A DNA stretch of 64,000 nucleotides from Tetraselmis striata (Eukaryota > Chlorophyta > Chlorodendrophyceae > Chlorodendrales > Chlorodendraceae), in assembly GCA_006384855.1 (NCBI GenBank), contig VCJN01000547.1, forward strand, positions 42,360 through 106,359, written 5' to 3'. Position numbers and translations under genes: made by a program. Below the pieces are notes generated by a model. The model had not been told where the DNA came from. It was given only the letters and a program-made list of their open reading frames with translations, and ran no database searches. This document shows, one piece after another, positions 6,001-60,530 of the stretch. How positions within the stretch are numbered: the first letter of the stretch is position 1; every line of letters begins with the position of its first letter.

Positions 6001-9000
6001 TAACTAGGACAGGGTAGGGAAATTGCACTGCTCAAGATTACTAATAAATATTAGTTGGTTACACCCTGTCTTGCAAGAGCCGGGCGGTACGGGTACCCTG
6101 GCCATTGTGCAAATAAAGTAAAATGGTGCCTGTTTTGAAATTCCAGTATATTTTCTATGTAGCGACTACATAGAACACATCTGACGCTCCGGCCTGACGA
6201 TGAATTTATATTATTTTAGGAGCAGGGACTGTTGGAACGCGGGCGCATACCGATACTTGGGGTACCGATACTCGTACTTCGTAATCGTTACCACCGATAC
6301 TCGATACGTCGCGACTTGAATGTGGTCCTGAAAATTGGGCCGGCGCGCGGATGGGCCGGCTGGTCCCAGCTCGCTGGCTGGCTGGTCCCAGCTCGCCTCT
6401 AGGCCCTGTCCGGATTACGGGAAAGGATACCCATACTTGCCGTAATACCAGCAATCCTAGACATGCATCCTTGTCTGACATGCATCGCTCATCCATTTCG
6501 TAGAGCGGTCTCCCTACGGGTACTGTACTGGTACTCGGAAGTCAGGATGTCCCGGATCGATTCCCGGCTGTCATTTCAGGGCAATATCGACCGGGCCCGT
6601 CACGTGTCCTGGGTTTACCCGGTTTATGCATTAGTCCTTTGGGGTTCGAATCATGCAAGGGTCGGCCATATGCCAGACCTACGACTGCAAGAATTGGCGC
6701 ACGAGGTGAAGTGCTGGGGCGGCTTCGGCCGGTGACCCGGCGGGGCGGACCTTGCCTTCATTATCGTTCGTAGCCGTCCGTACGGCGGTAGGAATAAGGA
6801 TTACTGGTAGGTGCGTGGCCAGTGGCCACTGCCAATAAGCGGGCCGCTTTTGGGCGGCTTGCTGTGTTGATTTTCTAATTCTGGGGAACTGTCCTTTTTG
6901 TAATTCACGCCAATAAGCGCATGGGCCGCCCCGGCACGTGGCCAGGTGCTGCGCTGTCGCCGTAGTATATGCGAGTAATCATTAGTTAGTCTCCTTTTTT
7001 TTAATTGTCGCTACGTATTTGTAAATGATTACATGTGCTAGCTGCAACATTCAAGAAATCCACACAGAAATCCAGAATAAGCAGGAAATCCAGCTACAGG
7101 TAGCGACGGCCACCAGAACCCGGGAAGAAGATGCAGCGCATGCGGTACTAGTAGCCAGTAGTAGCAACAGAAGTATTCGAGGACCTTTCTGATTGTCCCT
7201 TTTTTGGTAATTATTTCCTGATATCGCCTTCTGCTGCTAGCTCATGCTAGTAACAGCAGTGTTATTTAAAGGAGTACGGAACAGTAGCTAAATTTTCGTA
7301 GTAGTAACTAGTAGTAGTAGGCGATTTCCTGATCGCCTCTTGTAGCTAGCTCATGTAAATACACATCGTAGCTAGTGGCAGCAGTAGTATGGCTAAGTAA
7401 CTATTAGTAGTAACATCAGTACATGTAGCAGGAGCATGGCGGTAATTGTGGTAGGATGATAGCTTGTGCTCCATATGTAATAGATAAGACCAGATATGAT
7501 ATAACATTTCCCTCACTGTTGTCAGTCCTGTCCGCCACTGAGCCACTCCGCCCGGTGGGGTGGCGGTCTGGATGGAAAAAGGAAACTGAAGCATTCGCAC
7601 ATGGACATATTGCCTCCACAATCAAACTACACTTTGTCAAGGATGTAGTCACTTAATTAATTCGCAAATCTTTCCCTGTGTGTGTTCTCATGCTGACTTC
7701 AAGGGAATGGGAAAAATATTATAGTAATTCAAACCTACAGTGAGTCTTTATGAAAGGCTTCAATAGGGTCCTGGATGCTTTATGTTCTCTAAATGACTCT
7801 GTGTCCAGGCAGTCATATAATCCGCAAGGTCACATGCTGTGGGCATGAAAATTCAAACCAGATCAACAAGTCTGTAAACGCTAGGATTATTTTGCTCCGT
7901 CGACATCCAGGCGGTTACAACATTTTTGGCTAAAATCAGAACATTCAAGTGCTTGCACCCTGGGAGCGAGGTTGGGTTGCTCACCTGGCAGGGAGAGTTG
8001 GCGATGGCGGAGGCGGAAGCAAAGGGCTGGTTGGCGGAGAGACAGGGGATGGTGAGCTGGGGAGTGAGGGGGGTGGTGGTGAATGCGGGGGTGAGGGGCT
8101 CGATAGGGGTGGGGGAGGTGGCAAGGACCGGGGGCTGGATGGTGGTGATGGGGGCAGGGAGGAGAGTGACGGAGGGCTAGGCGGTGGGAAGGGTGGAGGA
8201 GGGGAGGGGGAGGGACTGTGCGGTGGGCTGGGTGGTGGGGCTGGGGGAGCTTGGGAGGATGGGGGGCTGGGTGGTGGTGACACGGGCGGAGAGGGGGGCG
8301 GAGAGGAATGTGTAGGCGGGCTTGGCGGTGGAGAGAGCAGAGGTGAAGAGGGTTGGGGGCTGGGTGGTGGGGAGGGAGGGGAGCTGGGTGGTGGGGAGGG
8401 AGGGGGGCTGGGTGATGGGGAGGGAGGGGGGCTGGGTGATGGGGAGGGTGGAGGGCTTGGTGGTGGAGGGGAAGGGGGGCTTGGTGGTGGGGGGGGTGGA
8501 GGGCTGGGTGGTGGGGAAGCAGGGGGCCTGGGTGGTGGGAAGGGAGGGGGGCTTGGTGGTGGTGGGAGAGGGGCGTTTGGGGGTGGGGAGGGTGGAGGGC
8601 TTGGTGGTGGGGGGGGGCGGGGGGCTGGGTGGTGGGGAGAGAGGGGGGTTTGGTGGTGGGGAGGATGGAGGGCTTGGTGGTGGGGAGGGAGGGGGGCTGG
8701 GCGGTGGGGATGGTGGCGGGCTTGGCGGCGGCGCGACTTCCGTCCCGTAGACTTGGACCTCTCTGAGATAGATGGCTCTATTATTGCCGCACCCCCCATC
8801 GTGCTTCGACTGCGCCTCGACGAAGACATACCTGGCTGGCCCAGGGTCTGAGTAGAAAGTCGCTGCTGTGAATGTATATTCCCCATGCTCAGCGATACCA
8901 TTGTTGGGAAGTTGTTCCACGATGGTGTTTGCCGAGGTCGGGCCTGTAGCATCGTTCCCTGTGCACACGCAGGAACATCCGCACACAGCCCAGCGGGTTA

Positions 9001-16135: not shown

Positions 16136-18605
16136 CCCGCATGGGGCGGGATGGATGGGTGATGCGCGCACGGTTCAGAGTCCGGGCCACGCGTGCACGT
16201 GTGTGTGAGGGTGATCCTCGGACGTGCTGTGCAGCTTCGGCAACGGGATGGCAGACAAATCTGCGCCGTCGGATGAGGCAGCGAGCACGCTCTCGAGCCG
16301 CCACCAAGCTCAGAACCCTATGGAGATCTCTTGCGAGTAAGGCCTCTTGGTGAGCCAGGGTGGTGCACCGAGTGCCTCGCAATGAGAGGGCACCCCGATC
16401 CGCAGCCAAGCTTGCAACACCGCGCACTGTGCGGCGCACCCCCTTGCTCACCTCGCCCACTGTGCCGAAGACCATGCCCGTGTACTCCGACATATCCAGG
16501 ATGCTTCGAAGAGGGCCCTTCTGTCCGGGCTACGTGTTGTGCCACGCCGCATCTCGCGCTGCCAACCCCCGTTGTATGTCGCCCAACACGGAGCGCTCAA
16601 ACTGATCCACAACCGTGGCCCGGGGCACTGCGGTGTACTTGACCCCGTACCGCATGGTCTTGAACTCCAGCACCGTGGGTTACAAGCTCCGGGGATCGTA
16701 GCTCCCGGTCGCGACGTTGAACGCCGGGAGGGAAATCTCTGCGTCCGCCACTAGGTCCTTGAGTTCATCCCCGGGTACGGTGTTGCCGAGAGGCACTGCT
16801 TGCTGGAACAAGTCAATGACCTCTCGGCGTACAACGATACCCATGTCGTGAACACAGTGATCGTGGAAGGCGTCTACGATAGCGTCGTGTTGTACACGCC
16901 AGTGGGCGTCTCCATGTGCCGGGATGTTCAAGAGCGCGTCGCCGTACATGTCAACAGTGACGGGGTTGTGCTCTGTCGAGGGCAGAATGATCTGGCTCCC
17001 GACCACCGGGGCCACGCACAGGCTAGGCAGAAAGAAGTACCCGGCCGCAACCTCCCGCAACTCATGCGGAGTCGTGACCGTCCGCGCGGTGGGGATGGCC
17101 ACTATCCACATGCCCGACGCCGCATCGAGCTGGTCGAAGAAGATCCGTTCCCTACATGTGGCAAGGAGAGCGCACACCTTATTTCGAAGCCGAGAGTTGT
17201 TGGCCATGTCTAGAAATGCCGTCAGCTCCTCTTGCGAGCCCGACGCAGCTTCCGCTTCCCGCTCCATCACGCGCGCATCTGCGTCGCTGAGGTGGCCAGC
17301 AGTAGCCGCTTGGAGGCGGCCCCACGCCTCGCGCATCTCCGCGGCGTAGCTGTCCGACCCATGAGCATCGTTGAGGAAGTGGTCATACTGGCGGGCGGAA
17401 GAAGTTGCGTTGAAGCTGCCTCGGCCAAGTACGGACCCGAGCTGTGGGTCGAAGAAACCATGGGTGGGGGTGTTGGTGCCGGAGTTCCTAGTCATGAACC
17501 TTTGGAGGATGGCATTCATGCAGCCGATGAAGGCGGCATCACGAACGGTAGCCATGGGGCGGATGCCGGCTCCCTTCAACCGAGTGGGGAGGTGAAGCAT
17601 GCTGCGCGCCCTGGCCACTGCATCCTCGCTGAGGGTAGCCACCTCCGCTGCCATGGGGTCGGGGTCGTGCAAAAGCTCCGCCAAAAAATCGTGACCACCG
17701 GATTGGTGTCGGTGCCGTACGTGGAGGGATGAAAAGAGAACCAAGCACCCGCTCGACCGCCGCGAGGACGGTGGCATCCACCGACACTGCAAAGCATGCT
17801 TTCACCTCGGACGGGAGGCAGTTGCGGAGCAAATGCCCCGCCTTGTGTTGCATGCAATGCTTGAGCAGGGCCCATGCGTGGGGATGCATGGCGTGGGTGT
17901 ACCGACGGCTGGGTTTGGCAGATAGGAGCTTGCTCAGGCTAGCGTCCACCTCCTCTCGGAGCTCCTCCGTCTTGCCACGCATGTACGCCTGCACATACTC
18001 TGGCGATCAGAGCGGCACGTTGAGGACCGGGATGACGTGATGGCCATCTAGCTCGGGCCACCGGGTGGAGCCTCACGCCGCGCGGCCTCCATGTCTGCGT
18101 TGTACGCGTGCATCTTGTCGAAGCGCACCTCAAGCCCCACAGACGCCTTGATGGACGTGCGGAAGGCATGAAGAGCTGGCCACACGTGCTCCGGGAGGCC
18201 CACCAAAATTCTATCGTCGGCGTTGAAGCGCGCCGCCCTGTCAGTGACCTCCAACGTGCTGTCACAGTGCTGCACCTCGGGGTGAATTGCGACGCAGAAG
18301 GAAGTCCTGGCCAACGTTGCGCCCTGTTGCACGCCGTCCTCCGACCGCAGAGGGGCGGACCGATCGTCCACGACCAGATACGAATCCGTGGAGGGGGAGG
18401 CTAGGAGCGCAGGGATGACAAAGTGTAGTGGAGAGCAATCGATGTGGCGTTGGATGATGGTGCGGCGCCATGCTTCGTTGTAAGCGTTGCGAAGGTCAAG
18501 CTTCTCTGCGATGAGCCGGACGCCGTGGATGCGTATGGAGTCGCCCGCGGAAATGCTAACGCCGAGCTGAGATGGAGCAAGCACTGTCACATATGCCTCC
18601 TTCAT

Positions 18606-18874
18606 TGTCATGCGCAACCTCCCCGCAACCGACGTGCAGGTCCATGTCGCACGTCGGGGTTGGGAGGCGGAAGCCCATAGTCGGGAGAGTGTCTGGTTAC
18701 AGAGAAGTGAGCATGCCCGGTGCGCCGAACGCCTTTATGGCGGGCGCGATGCGGTGCCCGCGGCGCGTGCGTAGCGCGGTGCTCGTACCACTCAGATACG
18801 TGCTAAAGTACTAATACGCATACCCTAGCTACATTGTCTGGTGTACATCAGTGGCAGCACCACTGGTGTCAACA
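18606..18874 (-). repeat. 3' LTR of TRIM 1
   Basis: 269 bp, reading TGTTGACACC ... GCGCATGACA on the minus strand. Preceded by the polypurine tract at 18875-18887. Confidence 0.9.
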
Positions 18875-19420
18875 TCCCCTCCCAATGTCGCAAGGGGATG
18901 CGCCAAGCAGGGGTTTCGGCTGCTAACGCTAGTCGCTAGCCTAGAGACGCAGCCCGCCCTGCCCTGACCTCGGCATGGATCGGGGCAGGTCCTCTAGGGA
19001 GTCTTACGGCGCCTACTGTCGAGCGGATAAAAGTCGCGGGTGGCCACTTCTCCTTGGGGCCGGTGTGCCGAGCTTCGCATGCGACTTCATACTAGTCAAG
19101 GAGCGTTGCCCGAGTTTTCCAATCGGCCGAGCCGAGAATCTCTTCGGGCGGGAGCTGCGGTATGCGGTAGTCGCTCGCTGGCGTCGTGGTAGCTGGCGAG
19201 GGAGCCCGTACATGGCGGTCGCTGGCGTCATGGTAGCCAGCGTCCGGGTGTGCGCTTTAGATGTAGGTCCGCAAACAACCTGTCGAGTGTCGAGGCCCCT
19301 TTCTGGCTGCGGTGGTATCGGTTTTACGTCCGGGCTTCCCGCCCAAACGGACTTCTTGCGAGGTCTAGCGTCAGACCATTCTCACTAGTGTCCGACATAG
19401 GCTGTAGAGGGCCCATAACC

Positions 19421-19689
19421 TGTCATGCGCAACCTCCCCGCAACCGACGTGCCGGTTCGTGTCGCACGTCGGGGTTGGGAAGCGGAAGCCCATAGCCGGG
19501 AGAGTGTCTGGTTACAGAGAAGTGAGCAGGCCCGGTGCGCCGAACGCCTATATGACGGGCTCGATGCGGTGCCCGCAACGCGTGCGTAGCGCAGTGCTCG
19601 TACCACTCAGATACGTGCTAAAGTACTAATACGCATACCCTAGCTACATTGTCTGGTGTACAGCAGTGGCAGCAGCACTGGTGTCAACA
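19421..19689 (-). repeat. 5' LTR of TRIM 1
   Basis: 269 bp, same termini as its partner. It differs at about 14 positions by eye, which indicates that the insertion is not recent. Confidence 0.9.
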
Positions 19690-21654
19690 TTCATATTGTC
19701 CACCATTGCCCGCTCCGCGGCGCGCCGCTCCGCCTCCCCGACTGTCACATGCCACACGTCCGGGGCCCTGCCCTCACGTAGCTTCTTGATTGGTGCCACG
19801 AGCCTAGCAGAGGCGAAGAGCCGGTTGAACCACCCGGGCCGGCGACCTTGGAGGTACATTGAGGCGACCTCCGACAAGGCGCGGACCGCCGCATGCCCCG
19901 ACGCCGGGGCGTATTCGCCCATAAAGCAGCGGAGATACTCGTTGCGCATGCCTGAGAGCCCCGCCGCCACGTGCTGCTTGAGTTGCTGGTACGGCACGCG
20001 CATGTCCACCATTACGGCGGCCTCGTCGACTGGAATGTCATACGCGGCATCTGGGATCGGGTGGCTACGGGACGGGTGCTTGTCGCGCAACTGGGCGAGG
20101 ATAGCGGGATCGACTAGGTCGCCCGTATCCTTAGAAGATAGTCGGCCCGTCACTCGGGAGAGCTCTCCGTCCTCCACCAACGCCACAACGGTGTCCGCGG
20201 TGCCCACAAGTAGCGCCGCATAGAGGTCAGCTTCCGTTCGACGCTGGCGGGCATGTCCGGCGTAAAACGTCTCGGTGCGCGTGTCGTCCCATGAGCGCAT
20301 GAGTTCGGTCATGCGCCTCTCCGCAAAAGCGCGGAAGCGCCACGTCAGGGCGTGTTGCCGCCGCCGCCTGCCTCGGCTCGGGGCCCTAAGCAACAATTGT
20401 GGCAACACGTACTTCCACTTCAACGCCCTATCCAACACCACGGGGTCATCGGCCTCCACCGCTGCCACCACCCGCTCATTCACGCAGCATTGTGTCTCCG
20501 CCCACGCTTTTTGAAAGTCAATAGGCACCGCCATCTCCATGTGCACCATGTCCACGTGGGAGAGGTGGTCCACCGCACCCCACCCCACCCCACCCCGTCG
20601 CCGGCTGGAGATGGGCGAGTAGGGGGGGCGGGTACCGAGCCCCTGAGTCCTGGCTACATGGGCGGCCGGCCGGTGCACCCACCTCTGGCGGCGCCGGAGC
20701 AACAACCGGGGGCGGTGCGACGCCCCGGAACGCAGCGACGGACGGCGATGCGGGCGACGACAGCACTGACGATTGTCCCGCTCCACCGGCGCGGCGCGCC
20801 CCCCGACGGCGGTGCTGCTCGGCCAGCACGGCGCGCGCCTTGGCTAGCCACGCGGCGGCGATCTCGGCGAAGGCCACCACGTCTTCTGGGTGGTGCCTGA
20901 CGCGAGCGGGTTGGAGCAACCTGGCTGCGGCGCCGATCCTCGGCGCCCACGCAGCGCCCGCGGCGACGCAGCGACTGTCCAAGCCGCCGCCGGCGCTACG
21001 TCCCGCCGCGCCGCCCGCTGCCGTGTAGCCTGGAATGCAGGCCGGTGAGCGCCATGCCGCGGTTGCCACCGCGCGGCCGCGGCTGGGGCCGCTCGGAGAC
21101 TTCGTCCTGGCCGGTCGGAACGCCGTCGTGATCGCGCTGCGACGCGCCGGGCCCCGAAATACTGCTGAAAGTACTGCGGCGAGGCGACGACGCAGGCGAG
21201 GCACCGCTCGCGCCGGTCGTACCTGCCACGCCCGTCGCGGACTCGGGACTTGACGACCGGCTCGCCGCCTGGGCGTACCTGGGAGCCGGCAGGGCAGCAA
21301 CCGCGGGCGGGCTCGGCCTTGGTGGCGCCGGGCGCACTGCCGCTGGACGGCGATGCCGCGGGCGACGCTCCCGCCGCCCATGATGAGCTGGGGCTGCCTG
21401 ATGTACTGGACGATGTACTGGGGGCGGCGGCGACCCGCGGTCAACGACGCGTTCTGCCGCACCATCGGCGAAAGGCGCAGACATTGCGCGGCGCCCCGCG
21501 TGATACAAGCGACCCGCCACAGCCCGGGCATAGAGGTGGCGTCGCGTGGGAGGGGGGTGAGGGCAGCTACGCGGTCTGGGCGGTGGGTGAGGCATGGCGA
21601 CACACGGCCCCGGGGCGCCTCCGGGGCCGCTAGGCGGGTGGTGGTGGTGGTAGT

Positions 21655-50299: not shown

Positions 50300-50780
50300 T
50301 CAGAGCCTCGTGGGTGGGGCGCCGTCGAGTGGGGCGGTCAGCGTGGGGGCGGGGACGGTGTCCCGTGCCGGTGGGCCCGGCATCATGAGCGCCAGGTTGT
50401 CCATCACCAGGCTGTTGCGCTCCTCCTCCTCCTCCTCCTCCTCGCGGCGCCTGGGCTCCTGGAAGCTCGGGAGCGTCTCGGAGAGCGAGCCCGAGGCAGT
50501 CACGCGGCGGGCGCGAGGAAGGAATTGGGGCGGCTCCGGCATGCGGCTCCGGGAGGTGAAGATCTCGGGGGCGGCGTGGAACAGCAGCGACTGCGTCTCG
50601 TCGATGCCCGCCAGCGTGCAGAGGTCGCGGTGCGAGTGCGCAAACTCCTCCCGCATGTGCCTGCCCCGCGCCCCGGCACCACGAGACGTCAGTCCCGGCA
50701 CATGCTGCGTCGGCGGCTGCAGGAGCCGCTGCGCGCTTGTAGGCCAGAGAGGGCGAACATTGACGGGGCGAGTCTAATCA

Positions 50781-50825
<45 letters not shown>

Positions 50826-51903
50826 TGTAGATATATATGTATTTGTTTTTACACATATATACACATGAATGTATATACGTTACAATATACATTGTATGTA
50901 TAAATATAAAATCAAAAGAATAAGAATAAGATTATTATCATTAGCTTCTAGGTCTTCTAGTTCTACCTCAGGCTCATCTGCTTTCACCTCCGCATTCATG
51001 CTACAGGTTCCGCCACATACCGCTCGCACGCATCGTGTTCCGCCAAGCCAAGAACTTGCATTCCTAGTGCGCCACCGCGGCGTGTGAACGAGTATTCTCT
51101 TTTTCGACTTTCACCAGGACGAGTCTCATTGTGCGTATCGTATGATAAAGCCTCACATGCTGTGATGCAGTGGGGGGCAGCGCATCCAGACGTAACCAAC
51201 TAGTCCGTCTGCCCTTAGACGAGCTGTATTGTATACATGCGCCCCAAGTGGGTCAGTCGCGTATACACATAACAGGCCGCCGACTTCGCGACCTGTGATT
51301 GTTTTTCCCTTCCGTCGCACACAAAGTACGGGTATTCGCGGCGGGTCGTCACTAAAGGCTGGAAATGTGGTTCGACCGGTGAGGCCACGCGCCGCACCAG
51401 CAGAAAAAGGTGTAGATGGCGAAGATGGCGTCCTCGCGCTTCCACGAGCCGTACACCACGCCCACCTCCTCCGTCAGGTACTTGCGCAGCCAGCCCACGT
51501 CCAGGGCCTCGGCGACCGAGATGTTGCGCCACACCTGCGAGAGGGCACGCGGGGCGCGAGCGCCGCGTCAACGCACCAAAGACGCAGAGCGCCAAGCCAG
51601 GCCGGGCAGCGAGCGAGCGCGAGTCCTCGTACGCGATGCATGCCATTACTGAACTGCGCACACATCTTCACACCGATCGCACTGTGGGGCAGGTTCATCA
51701 TGACATCTGAGGGTCAAGCGCACGGGAGCGCTCTCTCGGACCTTCCTCTGGAAATCGCCCCAACCCTGCCTTAGAATTAAATACGATCCCCGGGGCCCAA
51801 CAGTAGTGATTTGTTTTGCACATTCGCGTTTTAATATTCGGACTGTATTCGTACTATATTCCGATGGATTTCTCCGTTTTTAAGTTCTTTTCACATGGGA
51901 GGG

Positions 51904-51939
<36 letters not shown>

Positions 51940-54900
51940 CTGAAAACGTCATTTATCCGCAGACCGTCAATTGTGTTTGTACGGTATACGTATCTGCGCT
52001 GCGCACCTCAAGCCAACAGATACAGTAAAATAAAACACCAAGCTGCCTTTTCAGTCATATAAGCGACTAATCCTTATTCTGGATATGTCGCACACTCAGA
52101 AAGAGAAAACTTCCTCGTATGGCCGCAAGGGCAATGTTTGCGTTTGCCTTTGTTTCGTTTTGGAAGGGACACAGCGGACCCAGGGGTGCAAGCGGGAGGC
52201 GGGGGGCGGGGGGGGGGGGGCGGGGGGGGGGGAACCTCGTAGCCGTCCTCAAAGACGGCGGCCAGCACAGAGTAGACGGAGGGCGAGGCCATCGCGGAGC
52301 CGCGCGTGCGGATGAGGCGCAGCTCCGCCAGCGCGGCGCCCACGCGCGCGTTGTACTCCGGCTTGTTGTGCTCCTCGAAGAGGCGGCGCCAGTAGTGCTG
52401 CGCGCCCGAGGCCGCGGCGCTGCCCTCGTCGCGCGGGTCGGAGGCGCCCCACAGGTAGTCGAACGTCATGCCCAGCCACGCCTCCAGCGACAGCCAGTGC
52501 TTGAGCTTCTCGTCGCGGCGGTCGCGGCACATGCGCTCCGCGAGCGTCCACACGCGCGAAAAGTAACCAAACTCGCAGTACACGCCCGCCTCCAGGATGG
52601 CGGCCAGCTGCGAGGCGATGAGGCGGCGCGCCTTGTTGTTGGGGCGACCGCCGAGCTCGCGCAGGACGCCGCGGAGTGCGACGCGCATGCCGCCCTCCGC
52701 CAGGGGCGCCACCACGGGGAGCACCATCATCATGCGCGCGCGGCTGTAAAACAGCTTGCTGCGCGCGATCTCCACCATGCAATCGTTCGCGCTGCCATAC
52801 TGCGGCACGCAGCACCTGCGCATAGAAGAAAGGGGGGGGGGGGGGGGGGGGGGGGGGGGGAGGCAGAGAAATCAGCGCCATCGCCACAGTCCCCTGTTTG
52901 TTCACGATTTGTCCTAAACCAATACCAACACATTTCCTGGAATAGGTAAAATGATCTGCAGCATACATTAGTTAAAAATGCTACCTGCGCGTTAGTAGTG
53001 CCTAGAGAGCGAGAGCGAGAGCGAGAGAGAGAGAGAGAGGGACTCCACCACAAGGGGTGCAGGTGGCTGAGGGGCATCATAAGAGCGGTGCAGCAGGAAG
53101 CCGGATACCTGGCTGACACTGTTGATGTGTGTGTGCGGGTGGGGGGAGGGGGGGGGGGGGGGTCCCTGAATAATAGGGAACAAAATAAAAAAATTGCCTC
53201 CCATACTCAACAATGGGGTGCGAGATGCGTCTATATCCTAGTTCGCGCCACTCTTGTGTAAATTAGATATCAGGCAGAATCATAGCTAGGTATCAAACAG
53301 CACTGACTTCATGCTCTATCATGGAGACACCTTTGAAAAATCAGGAGCATAGCGAATGGATTTAGTACATAATTCTAGCATCTATCGATAAGGCATGTGA
53401 ATATTAAGACATATATATCAGGTATATAGCTTGTATTACTATTCTTTGCCAAACGCAGTTGTGTGAAAATTGTGACCTGCAGGCCATCCATGCGCGGTGT
53501 TCCCGAGCATACATACGTGCGGTACGTGCTCGGCAGGGATGCGGGGCGCACCAGTCGACCCAGACGTAGAAGATGCTGCGGTGCGCGTCGAGGTAGCGAC
53601 GCATCATGCCCAGCTGCGCGTCCGTCATGGGTGTGAACTCGGGGCTCTGCGCCACCGGCTTGGGCTTGCCCCAGCGCCAGCTGACGACCGCGGTGGCGTC
53701 CCACATCTTCTGCGTCGTGTCCTGGTACGGCACCTCCACGTAGACCGAGTTCCCGGCCGGCACCTCCTCGTAGCACGGCAGCGCGACCGCCTGCCGCACC
53801 CAGCTCGCCAGCAGCAGCCGCATCGGCCGCGACTTACACTCCTCGCCGATGCCCTCGTGCAGGTCGATGACGCTGGGCGCGAGCGCCTGGAAAGGGAGGT
53901 TGGCCTTGTCCTGAATGCCGACCGCCGCCTCCGCCTTGCGCGCCTGCTTGCTCATCGTGACGGAGGCGAAGGAGGCCGTCGACATACCACGGCTGGTCGC
54001 GAGGTGGGACCAGCCGCTGACGCTACCCAGGCTGCGCTCAGAAGGGTCGGCGCCGGCGCCATACATGCCCCCCATACCGGGCAGCTCCTCGTCGCTGCTA
54101 CCGGCGCTGAGGCTGCCGCGCGTCGACCGCCCGCGCCGCGCCTGCCCACCACACCAGTCCGCCCACCAGCACGAGCACCGCCAAGACGCCTACGGCGGCG
54201 CCCGCGATGATCGGAATCGAAGAGGAGGTTGCCGCGGCGGGCGCGGCGGGGAGTCTTGGAGGGTCCGACAGCATGCCGGCCGGTCGCACCGTGCGACGCG
54301 TGCCCACCGCCACATCGTACACCTTGGTGCAAGGGCCGCCGCCACACGCGGTGTACGGGTCGCCGCCCTCCAGCGTGTCGTCGACCGTGGAGAAGCGCAC
54401 GTGGGCGATGATGGTGTACGTGCCAGGCTCGAGCGCGATCTCGTCGGCAAAGTCCGCGGCGCCGGCTCGGTCGAGGTCGGCCGCCCCGGCCGCCGTGTGG
54501 GTGGACAGGCCGGGCGTGTCGGCGACAAACGGGGTGCACGCGCCCACGTTGGCAAAGCACGAGTGAATGTTGGCATGGTGCACGTCAAAGACGCCGCCGC
54601 CGAGTGTGGTGGACTCGGAGGGCAGCAGCGGCACTCGGGCACGGTCCAGCGCCAGGGAGTAGCGGACCAGGTAGCTCGTGGTCGCCTCCATATACTCCGG
54701 AAGCGGCGCGGAGAACGCGAGCGCCACCGCGGGCGGACAGGCCGCCATCTCGCGCTTGCCTTCGCTGCTGGAGGTCCAGCAGAGGGCGCACATCGCGGAG
54801 GGATCCTCCAGGTAGCACTGGCTGGACATGCTTATCCTGGTATTGCCGCCGTCGCCGCGCCCCACGCGCCGCAGCATGCCCACCGCCACATCGTACACCT

Positions 54901-55438
54901 GCGCCGACACCAACACGCCAGCGTGGCGGCCAGGATGATATCAGTGCCCATCACCAGATAGGGGTGAGACACCGAACGCGCGCCTTGCTGAGGCCAGGAT
55001 GCTGCAATTGTATTCTCAGCTATGTCAAGAGGGCACATGGCAGTGCGGCTATCGTGAAAGCTGATAGATTCAAAACAAACGCCAACGTATATCGATATTA
55101 AAATGATATCACGCATGATACATATGTACATGTTTATATGTAAATACGTATATCTGTAGATATAAATAAATTTATACTCCATTGTTTTTCATATATATAC
55201 ATAGAATGTACATACACACACATATATACACATATATGGATGTACATACAGACACAAACATATATATATATATATATAATATATATGTGTGTGTGTATAT
55301 ACATATTGATACATGTCTATGCATCGATGTAAATCCATATCTATATACACATATATATACATATAGGGGAGGGGACCCGTGAGATGTGTATATAACTGTA
55401 GGCTTATATGTGTATATATCATCTATGCATGTATACCT

Positions 55439-55469
<31 letters not shown>

Positions 55470-57810
55470 AAGGGAGGGGGGCTATAGTATAACAATCAAA
55501 CAACAAAGGCATATATTTGGAAACATAATCAGTGCTGAAGGAGGGGGAAAGGTGAGGGGAGCGCAGAGGTGGGTTCAAAGCGGACTCAGCTGCCTCAGCG
55601 GGGGAGGCAGGAGGCCGCACCTTGAGGCAGTCCAGGCCGCCGCAAGCGCCCAGCGGCTGCGCTACGCCGTCGTCCAGTGTGGCGAACCGCAGGTGCGCGA
55701 TGATCGTGTACACGCCGGCCTCGAGCTCAACAGGCGAGGAGAAGGCGACGCGGCCGTCGGCGCCCAGGTTGCCGCACAGCGCAGGTGTGTGCGTGGACAG
55801 CCCGGGCGTGTCGGCCACAAAGGGTGTGCAGGGACCCGAGGAGGAGAAGCACGAGTGAATGTTGGCATGCACCACCTCCGTCGGCGCGCCGGTGGTGCCC
55901 GGAGCTGCCAGCGCTACCGGCGCCACCACATCGGTGTCTACCCACAGCGAGTAGCCAACCTACAAGGCAAGCAGGAGGAGAAAGGGGTGTCAGGGGGCGG
56001 GCTGTAGTCCCATCCCTCCACCCGCAATCAGGCAGAGTGCCAATGAGCCCACCCATTGTGACGCCCCGAGGCTACGGACAGCCGCGTCGCAAACTCTTGG
56101 CCAAGCGTCAGAGCTAACGCCACGTGAGAACTGGCGTCGATAGAATAACGAACGTAGTTTACGTTTCAACCGCCTGGGCTGAACAAATTCAACCTGAAGT
56201 TGATAAATGACATGCCCCGGATATATTTGAACGCTGAGTCGGTGCAGAGTAAAGCGGAGCAGAGGGGTGGGGGGGTGGGGGGGGGGGGGGGGAGGTTGAT
56301 CAGCAGGAGGCGCATCTGCTCACAGGGGTGCGCGCGCACCTGCGTGGGCTGTAGGACCAGCAGCGAGGGTGGCAGCGCGGGTGGGTCCCAGGTGAGGCGG
56401 ACGGCAGGCGGGCAGGGCCCGAGCGCCTTGTCCCCCGCGCTGCTGGTGGTCCAGCACAGGGAGCACTCCGCGTCTGGGTCGCTGAGGTAGCACTGCCCGC
56501 GGTTGGCGGCGGACGAGCCGCCACTGCCGCCGCCGTCGCCCGGCGCCACGCTGCGCGGGAGCCCCGCCGCGACGTCCCACACGGTGAGGCCGCCGCCAGG
56601 GGCCGCGGTGTGGAAACGCACGTGCACGATGAGCGTGTACTCCCCGCCGGCAGCGCGACGCCCGACGTGAAGCGCACCGCGCCGTCCGCGCCCAGGTCGG
56701 CTTCGAGGCTGGGCGTGTGCGTGGCCAGCCCGGGGGTGTCGGCCACAAAGGGGGTGCAGGGCCCGCTAGCCGCTGCGCACGAGTGCACGTTTGCATGGGA
56801 GACATCCGCCGCCTCGCCGCCCGTGGTGCCGGCCACCGGCACGACCGGCAGCCCCAGGCGCACCGCGTACGTCGTCGGGTAGAGGCGGCCCGCAGTCATC
56901 TCGCGCGGCGGGGGCGTCTCCCATGTGAGCGCCACCTCCGGCGGGCATCGCGCCAGGCGGACAGTGCCGGCGGGATCGGTTGTCCAGCAGAGCGCGCATG
57001 CGGGGGCGTCGCGCGCAGGGTCGTCCAGGTAGCAGAGGCCGCCCTGCTGGGTGGATCCGCCGCCGCTCGGCTCCTGCGCCGGCGGCCGGACGGTGCGGCG
57101 CACGCCGGCGGCGACGTCGTAGGTCTTGAGGCAGGCGCGGCCGCCGCAGCTGGTGGCGGGGTCGGGCACGCTGTCGTCCAGCATGGTGAAGCGCAGGTGC
57201 GCGATGAGGGTGTGCTCGCCCGGCGGCAGCGACAGGGCGCCCACAAAGCGTGCCTCGCCCAGGCCGTCCAGAGCTGCCTGCAGCGCGGGCGACTCGGTGA
57301 CCAGCCGGGGCGTGACGCCCACAAAGGGCGTGCAACCCAGAGGGCCAAGGTTGGCCACTGCGCAGGAGTGCAGGTTGGAGTGCGACACGTCATGCAGGGT
57401 GCCGTCGTGCGCGGGGCTGGGGACCAACGCGGCGGCCTGCGCGGAGCCCAGGCGCAGCGTGTAGCGCAGCGAAAACTGCACTCCCGCCTCCAGGTCTGGT
57501 GAGCCATAGGCATTAAGAGGGCCCAGAGGGGAAGGGGGGGGGGGAGTCCCTCAGTCCTCGAGCAATGTGCCATGGAGGGCAGCCTGTGCCAAGGGTCAGG
57601 TGTGAGTGCTTGTTACTAGCATTAACTGCAGCAATCGTTAACGGGGGGGTGTGGGTCGCAAACATAAGCAAATCTCTGCTTTGCATCATCGAGTCGGAGG
57701 CTCGTACTCCGTGCTATATTTGTGGTGTATTTTGAGATAAATGTAGAGTTTTGCAGAGGGTTGATGCGTAGCAAACCCAAGATTATTAATACGGGCATAC
57801 TGTGTGTAAT

Positions 57811-57863
<53 letters not shown>

Positions 57864-58948
57864 CGGTATGCCTTGCGCACGTTTCAGCATCCATAAATGT
57901 ATTTCAATGTATATTTTATAAAATTCGTAGCCCTGCGTATCTCATATTCATTTATCTATTTGTAAATATACACATCTCACAGGTCCCCCCCCCCCCCCCC
58001 CCCCCCCAACACACACACACATCCTCCATCTTGGACATTCTGGAAGACCACGGAAGTATGCAAAGAAAGGGGGAAGAAAGGGGCGGAGGGGCACAGCCGT
58101 GGGGGCGGGCCCTCGGCGGCACCTTCCGGCGGCGGCTCCAGCTCGAGCGCGATACCGGGCGGGCAGGCCGCCAGCTGGGAGGCGCCCGCGGAGTCGGTGG
58201 TCCAGCAAAGCGCGCAGGCGGGGTCCTCGGCGCCGGAGGCGTCCAGATAGCAGCGCCTTGCCGCCGCCGCCGCCGCCACCTCGCGGCGCCCGCCGGCGGC
58301 AACGTCATAGCGCATCACGTGACCGCCGGCTCGTCGAGCGAAAAAGCGCGCGTGGGCCAACACCGTCGACCGTCCGGGCGGCAGCGACACAACGCCGCTG
58401 AAGGCCGCCACGCGTGTGATGCTAAGATGGCTCGCGAGGGCCTCCGTGTCGACCGCCGTCCACTCGTTCCCGCCCAGGGCGGCCTCCACCGCGAAGGGGC
58501 TGCAGGCGTCCGCGGCTGGGCCGGAGCGGACGTGGAGGTTGGCATGAGGGATGTCCCAAGTTTGCGCGCTGCGCGCGCTCGCTGTGTTTGGCAGCACCTG
58601 GAAGTCGGGAGCCACCTGCAGCCGGTACCGGGCCTCGTAGCCCAGGGCCGCCTCGAGGCCATCGGCAGGTAGTGCCCGCGTGAAGGTGAGGCTCATCCCC
58701 GGCGGGCACTGTTGGAGCAGGGAGGGCGGGCCGCCGACTCCGAGGTCGGTCACCCAGCAGGCCATGCACCCGTCGCCAGTGGCGGGGGCATTGTCCCGAA
58801 GATAGCACGGAATTGTTCCGTTGTTATTTCTGCTACGGTCTACCTGCTGGGCTCTCGCCGGCTGCGGGCCGCACACCTGGATCAGCACAACCAGCAGCAG
58901 CAGCAGCGGTGTCGCTGCCTGGAGACAGCGCCAATCGCGCCAATCCAT
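50300..58948 (-). CDS. Receptor-like single-pass membrane protein: five Cys-rich ectodomain repeats, TM, HET/TIR-like cytosolic domain, ~1,581 aa
   Basis: Exons in coding order: 58123-58948, 56340-57495, 55621-55959, 53552-54898, 52236-52815, 51398-51534, 50300-50660. All junctions are GT-AG and in phase if one base is added near 56645 and one removed near 54130-54147. A signal peptide (PLLLLLVVLIQVCG) is followed by five ~190-aa repeats sharing CYL-x(n)-C-x2-CWT, a CPP motif, HANxHSC, CTPFVADTPGLxTHT, a YTIIAHxRF strand and YDVAxG. TM at about 1002-1025 (IIAGAAVGVLAVLVLVGGLV). The cytosolic part has DATAVVSWRWG (~1174), then FYVWVDWCCVPQYG across an intron, then YSRARMMMVLPV, the spacing seen in HET/TIR-like domains, and a Glu-rich C-terminus. 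The ectodomain family is unrecognised and the signalling role is inferred. Confidence 0.83.
50782..50822. repeat. (AT)n microsatellite in the last receptor intron
   Basis: About 20 AT units. Confidence 0.9.
51905..51939. repeat. G35 homopolymer (longest in window)
   Basis: 35 consecutive G in the intron between receptor exons 5 and 6; C on the sense strand. Confidence 0.9.
52832..52860. repeat. G29 homopolymer acting as polypyrimidine tract on the sense strand
   Basis: On the minus strand it is C29, ending 14 bases before the acceptor AG (52817-52816) of receptor exon 5. Confidence 0.85.
53004..53040. repeat. (GA)n / GAGAGC repeat
   Basis: Purine repeat in receptor intron 4. Confidence 0.85.
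55441..55467. repeat. (AC)n microsatellite in receptor intron 3
   Basis: About 13 AC units. The same intron is AT-rich and carries several TATATA and TGTGTA runs (55180-55400). Confidence 0.85.
57812..57861. repeat. (CA)n microsatellite in receptor intron 1
   Basis: About 25 CA units. A C20 tract follows at 57987-58006. Confidence 0.9.
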
Positions 58949-59587: not shown

Positions 59588-59604
59588 AAACCCTAAACCC
59601 TAAA
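59588..59604. repeat. Interstitial telomere-like CCCTAAA repeats
   Basis: AAACCCTAAACCCTAAA, two and a half perfect units of the TTTAGGG telomere type. Confidence 0.6.
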
Positions 59605-59734
59605 CGAATATATACACAGGCACCGGCTAAGCGCCTACTGCTTGACAGCTTGTAAGGATTATGTATCAGGGCCTGTACAGGCACTGGACATAAATAAAGG
59701 TGAAGCTGCCGGAGTGCAGACCAGATGTGCCTAG

Positions 59735-59850
59735 GGAATTCCCGGGAAAATGGGAAAACGGGAAATTCCCTAGGAATTCCCGCCGATCGCCAAAAAATAA
59801 TAGGGAATTCCCGGAATTCCCGGGAATCCCTAGGGAATTCCTGGGTACCG
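59735..59850. repeat. Cluster of GGGAATTCCC palindromes (1)
   Basis: At least six near-perfect palindromic units (GGGAATTCCCGGGAA, GGGAAATTCCCTAGGAATTC), separated by short spacers, in 115 bp. Confidence 0.75.
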
Positions 59851-60439
59851 GCACTCTGTACCGGCTCAGGGGCCAAGGCCGTCAATGTGATGCAGGTTTT
59901 TTTGCATTTCCCAGGCACGTAGGAATGTCCTTTTAAAACATATTTATCCCGTGAGCACTAATGTGGCTAGCGCAGTAATGGAGAGCGCATGCAGGTGGAG
60001 CAGTCGAGCAGAGCAGGCTGTAATGCCGGCCGGGGCCGGGCCAGGGCGGGGTGGCGCGGGGCGGATGCGCAAGCGGCCGGCTGGCCCGGCTGCTGGTCGG
60101 AAGGGATGACGGTGGGGTAACGGTATCTGTCCCGGACTCGGGCAGTCGTCAAGCCTCCGGCCCTCAGTGCCCCTTGGCCGGGCTGAACAGCCCTGCTGAC
60201 AGCTTGTAGAATGACAGCCGTCCGCCCGCAGGCTGCAAGCATGCATGTGCGGTAGGGGGTCGAGAGACGGCTGACATGGTGACAGTTTGATAAGGCAGTC
60301 GCTGCATCCCTCACTTGACGGCCGCTGGCGGGCACGCGCCCGACAGCCTGCTGGACTCGTGTTCGCTGGGTTTGTGATAGTCGCGCCCGGATAGAGTGCC
60401 ACGTAGCGCAACCGGTACATTAATTATAAATTACAGCCG

Positions 60440-60530
60440 CGAATTCCCGATTCCAGGGAATTCCTAGGAAAACGGGAATAATTCCCGGGAATTCCCGGGA
60501 ATTCCCGACACCTCAAATAGGTATTCCCGG
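60440..60530. repeat. Cluster of GGGAATTCCC palindromes (2)
   Basis: The same palindromic unit repeated (AATTCCCGGGAATTCCCGGG), about 600 bp from cluster 1. Confidence 0.75.

Follow-up and report, generated by a model that had tools for sequence, protein, structure and literature searches.

The window analyzed here, a 64-kb stretch corresponding to bases 42,360–106,359 of contig C430, carries on its minus strand, at 50300–58948, a gene for a putative cell-surface receptor. A sequence-based gene model, in which splice sites were picked by reading frame and consensus, joins seven exons into a protein of ~1,584 residues, with a GT donor and an AG acceptor at all six introns. In this model, a signal peptide is followed by five cysteine-rich (Cys-rich) repeats of ~170 residues each, one transmembrane (TM) segment, a juxtamembrane part, and a cytosolic HET domain. 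Hydropathy analysis located the N-terminal signal-type stretch at residues 5–33 and the single TM stretch near residues 996–1031. The initial annotation had proposed a receptor-like protein made of a signal peptide, repeats, one TM segment, and HET/TIR-like motif elements; all of these were found at their places on the minus strand and within one gene. We characterized the gene by comparison with the whole genome (224 Mb, 2,903 contigs), in which the same TM-HET part is coupled to other ectodomains.

Cytosolic HET domain

The C-terminal tail of the protein matched the Pfam family HET (PF06985) with 23.7 bits (cut-off, 22.5) and an E-value of 6.8e-5 over profile positions 3–146 of 146. Three HET blocks, of the A[VL]SYRW, YVWIDxxxVPQ, and RxWTLQE types, which are the consensus blocks of fungal HET proteins, are present in the window gene and could be aligned across both HET subfamilies described below. 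The first block reads VVSWRWG at residue 1181, and the second reads YVWVDWCCVPQ at residue 1221, across the junction of exons 4 and 5. No other Pfam family was listed for the tail at E-values up to 10, a list from which weak matches were mostly filtered out, and no protein kinase family was among the matches. Likewise, NACHT and NB-ARC were not listed for the pieces of the window protein searched, which excluded most of repeat 3. A sequence search of solved structures returned no match with the tail (one query residue was wrong at the start) and none with the family profile, and a scan of viral contigs and bacterial and archaeal genomes with the alignment of the HET-B subfamily gave no confirmed relative. 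The cytosolic region is a predicted HET domain, as the initial annotation had suggested: the Pfam match lies above the curated cut-off, and 24 of the 30 rows of the family alignment, several of which are part domains, matched PF06985 at E ≤ 1.

Cys-rich ectodomain

The five repeats span residues 48–219, 233–406, 430–588, 612–782, and 803–974. The 10 possible pairs are 32–54% identical over 149–170 columns, and their alignment scores (127–417 in 10/10 pairs) are far above those of shuffled sequences (at most 67 among 200 shuffles per pair); the similarity of the repeats is therefore not due to chance. The motifs that had been ascribed to all five copies are best preserved in repeats 3–5, divergence being greater in repeats 1 and 2. 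At least eight cysteines occur in repeats 2, 4, and 5, and fewer in repeats 1 and 3. The conserved cysteine richness would fit an extracellular location, as expected.

No Pfam family exceeded its cut-off for the repeats, in agreement with the earlier description of the ectodomain as one without a name. DUF4458 was considered and rejected because its match of 21.6 bits over 37 residues is below the cut-off of 22.4; on repeat 5 alone it scored 15.6 bits, and only 2 of 12 repeat rows matched it at E ≤ 1. A hormone-receptor domain was also rejected, its Pfam score being under the cut-off. The titles of the literature retrieved under the name DUF4458 included nothing on the subject, and the ectodomain itself has no name by which to search.

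In the genome, the Cys-rich repeat was found in the window gene, on C670/C2403 (two copies), and at the end of C2201. These loci were collected by a genome query with the joined repeats, together with a five-copy profile that was run on the collected loci only. The C670 and C2403 contigs are 98.0% identical across 3.5 kb and probably represent two haplotypes. When viral contigs were scanned with the portion of repeat 4 encoded by exon 3, no confirmed relative was obtained.

The C670 locus is informative about the integrity of the gene. There, a single open frame of 529 codons within one exon covers the terminal part of the second repeat (YDVAVG), followed by the TM segment and HET, which indicates that the ectodomain and HET are parts of a single gene and answers the concern that the ectodomain and cytosolic exons of the window gene might come from different genes.

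HET subfamilies in the genome

A genome-wide search with PF06985 gave at least 31 matches, all above the cut-off. With the window HET as a query, 58 matches were obtained and merged by hand into 31 places, which include haplotype copies and broken ones. Two subfamilies were distinguished. HET-A (up to 30 places, part of which were read) bears the signature AVSYRW ... YVWIDxLSVPQ, and HET-B, to which the window gene belongs, bears VVSWRW ... YVWVDWCCVPQY. HET-B has ~45 residues ahead of the RVWTLAER block that are absent from HET-A of the same genome. The HET-A domain sits after several TM segments (2–6 by hydropathy in the six frames listed in Table 1), and the longer HET-A frames also extend into a long C-terminal part after HET.

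An alignment of 30 chosen HET rows covering both subfamilies, rather than every HET place, conserved S, R, W, Q, W, D, and R at ≥90%. A tree was built from 24 rows, namely the joined window HET and 23 of the alignment rows; the alignment rows not used were the two halves of the window HET, four short HET-A rows, and the second of the C663 fragments. HET-A and HET-B were split with 100/100 support. The window row is closest to C1018, whose HET is 59% identical to that of the window gene, and C670, the order among the three being unresolved in the tree. Two HET-B places differ in layout from the other receptors: C1446 is without leucine-rich repeat (LRR) units and has one TM segment before HET by hydropathy and a seemingly short ectodomain, and L045 (C1126:23074–26502) has HET-B behind at least two TM-like stretches, unlike the single-TM receptors.

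Paralogs with LRR ectodomains

The C1018 paralog has a plant-type LRR ectodomain, with Pfam matches to LRRNT_2 (34.6 bits; cut-off, 20.7) and LRR_1 (36.3 bits; cut-off, 20.6). Its 702-codon frame continues with more LRR units, one TM segment, and then HET. This arrangement recurs: LRRNT_2 lies 2.5–11.5 kb upstream of HET-B on the same strand at 9 of the 43 LRRNT_2 places in the genome (C1018, C1618, C663 twice, C1997, C1449, C1237, C2620, and C1419), against 0.036 expected. The corresponding Poisson P of 2.5e-19 is overstated, since haplotype copies and tandem duplicates were counted as independent; the size of the effect is not overstated. Among the controls, the flipped strand gave 0, HET-A gave 0, and the reverse order gave 1, at C663, where two such genes stand in succession.

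LRR units numbered 6–17 in sense and 0 in antisense at 8/8 loci read (of the nine, C1997 was excluded). By the same pattern, none was found in the 64-kb window, at C670 or C1446, or in 29 HET-A loci (93.6 kb). The counting pattern was widened after the loci had been read, so its zero controls carry more weight than the raw counts; an earlier, stricter pattern gave, in sense, 16 units for C1018, 3 for C1419, 1 for C663b, one of the two C663 genes, and 0 for five other LRR loci, and, in antisense, 3 for C663a, the other C663 gene. One TM segment ahead of HET was found by hydropathy in C1018 and C663b, as well as in C670, and the remaining LRR members show a TM-like stretch by eye in their frames.

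The two tandem genes at C663:92200–114000 lie on the same strand, and their HET domains are 97.6% identical over 205 residues. Their LRR arrays differ (6 and 13 units found), and 17 units were counted in a closely related gene on C1237. In HET, the ratio of synonymous to non-synonymous changes was 15:3 for C663b–C1237, 18:2 for C663a–C1237, 9:5 for C663b–C663a, and 3:3 for C1449–C2620, and dN/dS of close LRR-receptor pairs was 0.03–0.30; distant pairs (0.37–1.14) were set aside as uninformative. That silent changes equal or exceed amino acid changes in the close pairs fits working genes.

A kinase lies downstream of LRRNT_2 on the same strand at no fewer than 2 of the 43 places, picked by eye (C2256:101938–105675 and C1987:1160–6881). 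These loci possibly encode LRR receptor kinases in the alga.

Taken together, the comparisons strongly indicate that the receptor family keeps its TM-HET part while the ectodomains differ, being Cys-rich in the window gene and C670/C2403 and plant-type LRR in the others. The window gene is predicted to encode a sister form of the LRR-TM-HET receptors that has an undescribed ectodomain. Paralogs, for which the initial annotation had recommended a search, are present in number, and its proposal of cell-surface recognition is strengthened by eight of them with LRR ectodomains.

Other features of the window and genome

Just upstream of the gene, at 59590–60510, are interstitial copies of the telomere-like motif CCCTAAA and several palindromic repeats of the GGGAATTCCC type. 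Long frames on the minus strand at 16683–20843 resemble by eye a decayed retrotransposon; they contain a motif like one of reverse transcriptases, and three of the frames had no Pfam match. Proline-rich PPPSPPP frames at 298–2190 (without a Pfam match) and 7984–8997 are reminiscent of cell-wall proteins of the pherophorin type. In the window, eight other long frames were without a Pfam match, and scans for Rfam families and tRNAs found nothing.

The genomic rbcL lies on contig C1177, in a stretch of 33% G+C, and its matches assign it to form IB; the best of them is 1gk8, the form IB protein of Chlamydomonas (1044 bits over 475 residues). RbcS is on a different contig. Form IB rbcL together with RbcS on another contig identifies the source as a green alga.

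Table 1. Coordinates of the window gene (in window positions) and of HET-A and TIR_2 places elsewhere in the genome
Feature	Location	Strand	Content
Exon 1	58123..58948	-	Start codon, signal peptide, repeat 1, start of repeat 2; GT donor
Exon 2	56340..57495	-	Remainder of repeat 2, repeat 3, beginning of repeat 4; frame break near 56645; AG acceptor, GT donor
Exon 3	55621..55959	-	Bulk of repeat 4; AG acceptor, GT donor
Exon 4	53552..54898	-	End of repeat 4, repeat 5, TM segment, juxtamembrane part, first half of HET; frame break near 54150
Exon 5	52236..52815	-	Second half of HET (CCVPQ ... RVWTLAER) and region after it
Exon 6	51398..51534	-	C-terminal part of cytosolic domain, LTEEVGVVYGSWKREDAIFAIYTFFC; by eye resembles the corresponding part in paralogs C1446 and C663
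Exon 7	50300..50660	-	C-terminal low-complexity tail; stop codon TGA at 50302-50300
Cys-rich repeat 1	58277..58807	-	
Cys-rich repeat 5	54287..54817	-	Entire repeat within one exon
Single TM segment (approximate)	54145..54230	-	Hydropathy and sequence
HET-A example	L016:1-2949		
HET-A example	L020:79-2757		
HET-A example	L030:418-3240		
HET-A example	L031:1-2811		
HET-A example	L018		
HET-A example	L010		
TIR_2 contigs	C613, C2592, C40, C1400, C765, C828, C645, C2490, C1704, C200 (two), C2273		

Discussion

From layout and family, the window gene and its kin are most likely type I receptors. We consider it rather probable that the product of the gene is a green algal receptor that sits at the cell surface and spans the membrane once, and that it would work as Toll-like receptors do, HET standing where they have TIR. 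The ectodomain would bind a ligand, whether of microbial origin, from other algal cells, or from the cell wall, and binding would gather the HET tails, the TM segment transmitting the event. The clustered HET domains may signal by recruiting other HET proteins or, by analogy with some TIR domains, through an enzyme activity, and the end result would be a defense or cell-death response. The receptor may serve an immune or self/non-self role.

Several observations weigh against this sequence-based reading. The HET-B type has diverged from the Pfam family: C1446 (29.9 bits) is the sole HET-B place among the listed PF06985 matches, the 702-residue frame of C1018 scores 18.9 bits (below the cut-off of 22.5), and the 529-residue frame of C670 matches no Pfam family. 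Identification of the tail as TIR proper was rejected, the PF01582 and PF13676 profiles being absent among the matches listed for it. Twelve of the 58 matches to the window HET hold in-frame stops, and the window row of the tree has no strongly supported branch within a set of half of the rows or fewer. When the window gene is compared with three relatives, dN/dS (0.61–1.14) is uninformative at such divergence and does not indicate constraint. Finally, the continuous reading frame of the model depends on bridging two frame breaks, one in exon 2 and one just after the TM segment, which, if real, could make this copy a pseudogene.

Among the alternatives, it is conceivable, albeit unlikely, that the same architecture serves mating, cell–cell recognition, or cell-wall/matrix sensing, with HET signaling without cell death. 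The Cys-rich ectodomain, with no Pfam family above the cut-off and rare in the genome (the window gene, C670/C2403, and C2201), would be compatible with such a job. However, an expanded family with varied ectodomains on related HET tails is more usual for the recognition of varied ligands, and fungal HET is tied to non-self recognition (PMC4986451).

We find it improbable that the window copy is a decaying pseudogene whose paralogs are the functional members. The two frame breaks, the lack of an intact second copy in the genome match lists (obtained with the joined repeat query and the window HET query), and the in-frame stops in other family members speak for decay. Yet both breaks fall within stretches rich in G and C, the exon 2 break at a run of G, and the surrounding sequence is full of homopolymer tracts; the breaks are likely assembly errors. 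Moreover, a long open frame lies on either side, the splice sites are intact, and the five repeats and HET blocks have been kept. Erroneous fusion of two neighboring genes, one for a secreted Cys-rich repeat protein and the other for an intracellular HET protein, might be suggested by the position of one break between the TM segment and HET, but is very improbable and was rejected in view of the 529-codon frame of C670, which unites the end of the last repeat, TM, and HET, just as the 702-codon frame of C1018 unites LRR units, TM, and HET.

The proposed Toll-like-receptor-like receptor shares parts with several known systems. Fungal HET proteins (HET-E/HET-D/HET-R, TOL, and HET-6) have the PF06985 domain and its sequence blocks in common with the algal proteins. 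HET-E, HET-D, and HET-R are NLR-type proteins with HET at the N-terminus (PMC4986451), whereas in the alga HET is the tail of a predicted secreted-and-anchored single-pass receptor. In fungi, HET acts as an effector of cell death during non-self recognition, and it has remote similarity to TIR (Dyrka et al., PMC4986451; reviewed in PMC10197012). HET homologs outside fungi have been recorded in green algae, bryophytes, stramenopiles, haptophytes, and choanoflagellates, and the section of that paper on them neither sets out how these proteins are built nor mentions a receptor layout (PMC4986451). In the genome studied here, TIR_2 (PF13676) was above its cut-off at 12 places and TIR (PF01582) at 0; the alga is thus not without TIR, and HET and TIR coexist.

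Animal Toll-like receptors (LRR-TM-TIR), which occur in most animal lineages (PMC2939053), share with the LRR paralogs the layout of an LRR ectodomain, one TM segment, and a cytosolic domain; they differ in having TIR instead of HET, and the algal LRRs are plant-type with LRRNT_2 caps. The window gene itself resembles a Toll-like receptor in its single TM segment and cytosolic domain, but has Cys-rich repeats in place of LRR units. Plant LRR receptor kinases and receptor-like proteins share plant-type LRR units and LRRNT_2 caps with the paralogs, and the kinases differ in having a kinase where the paralogs have HET. These comparisons suggest an algal counterpart of Toll-like receptors made from different parts.

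A 2010 survey reported LRR receptors in nearly all chlorophytes and no LRR kinases there save two in one Chlorella (Soanes and Talbot, PMC2939053). A 2024 survey of 350 genomes described LRR kinases in green algae as well as LRR receptor-like proteins, a receptor-like protein being defined by the presence of a TM segment and the absence of a kinase (PMC10834447). HET in algae, the HET-TIR link, the LRR-TM layout, and the domains themselves are already known. No report of a transmembrane LRR-HET receptor was found in searches of the open-licence PMC literature, and the predicted LRR-TM-HET combination would thus far be new, together with one undescribed ectodomain.

We tentatively propose, at somewhat less than even confidence, that green algae have an immune-receptor class of their own, in which an LRR or another ectodomain is followed by TM and HET, as a third solution next to the LRR-TM-TIR receptors of animals and the LRR-TM-kinase receptors of plants, and that some 'tail-less' algal LRR receptor-like proteins may belong to it; the window gene shows the HET tail coupled to at least one undescribed ectodomain. 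The profiles of HET-B and the Cys-rich repeat can be used to search other algal genomes. The HET tail provides a concrete and testable answer to the question of what kinase-less LRR receptor-like proteins signal with and, if true, would give HET, known as an effector of cell death in fungi, a part in transmembrane signaling.

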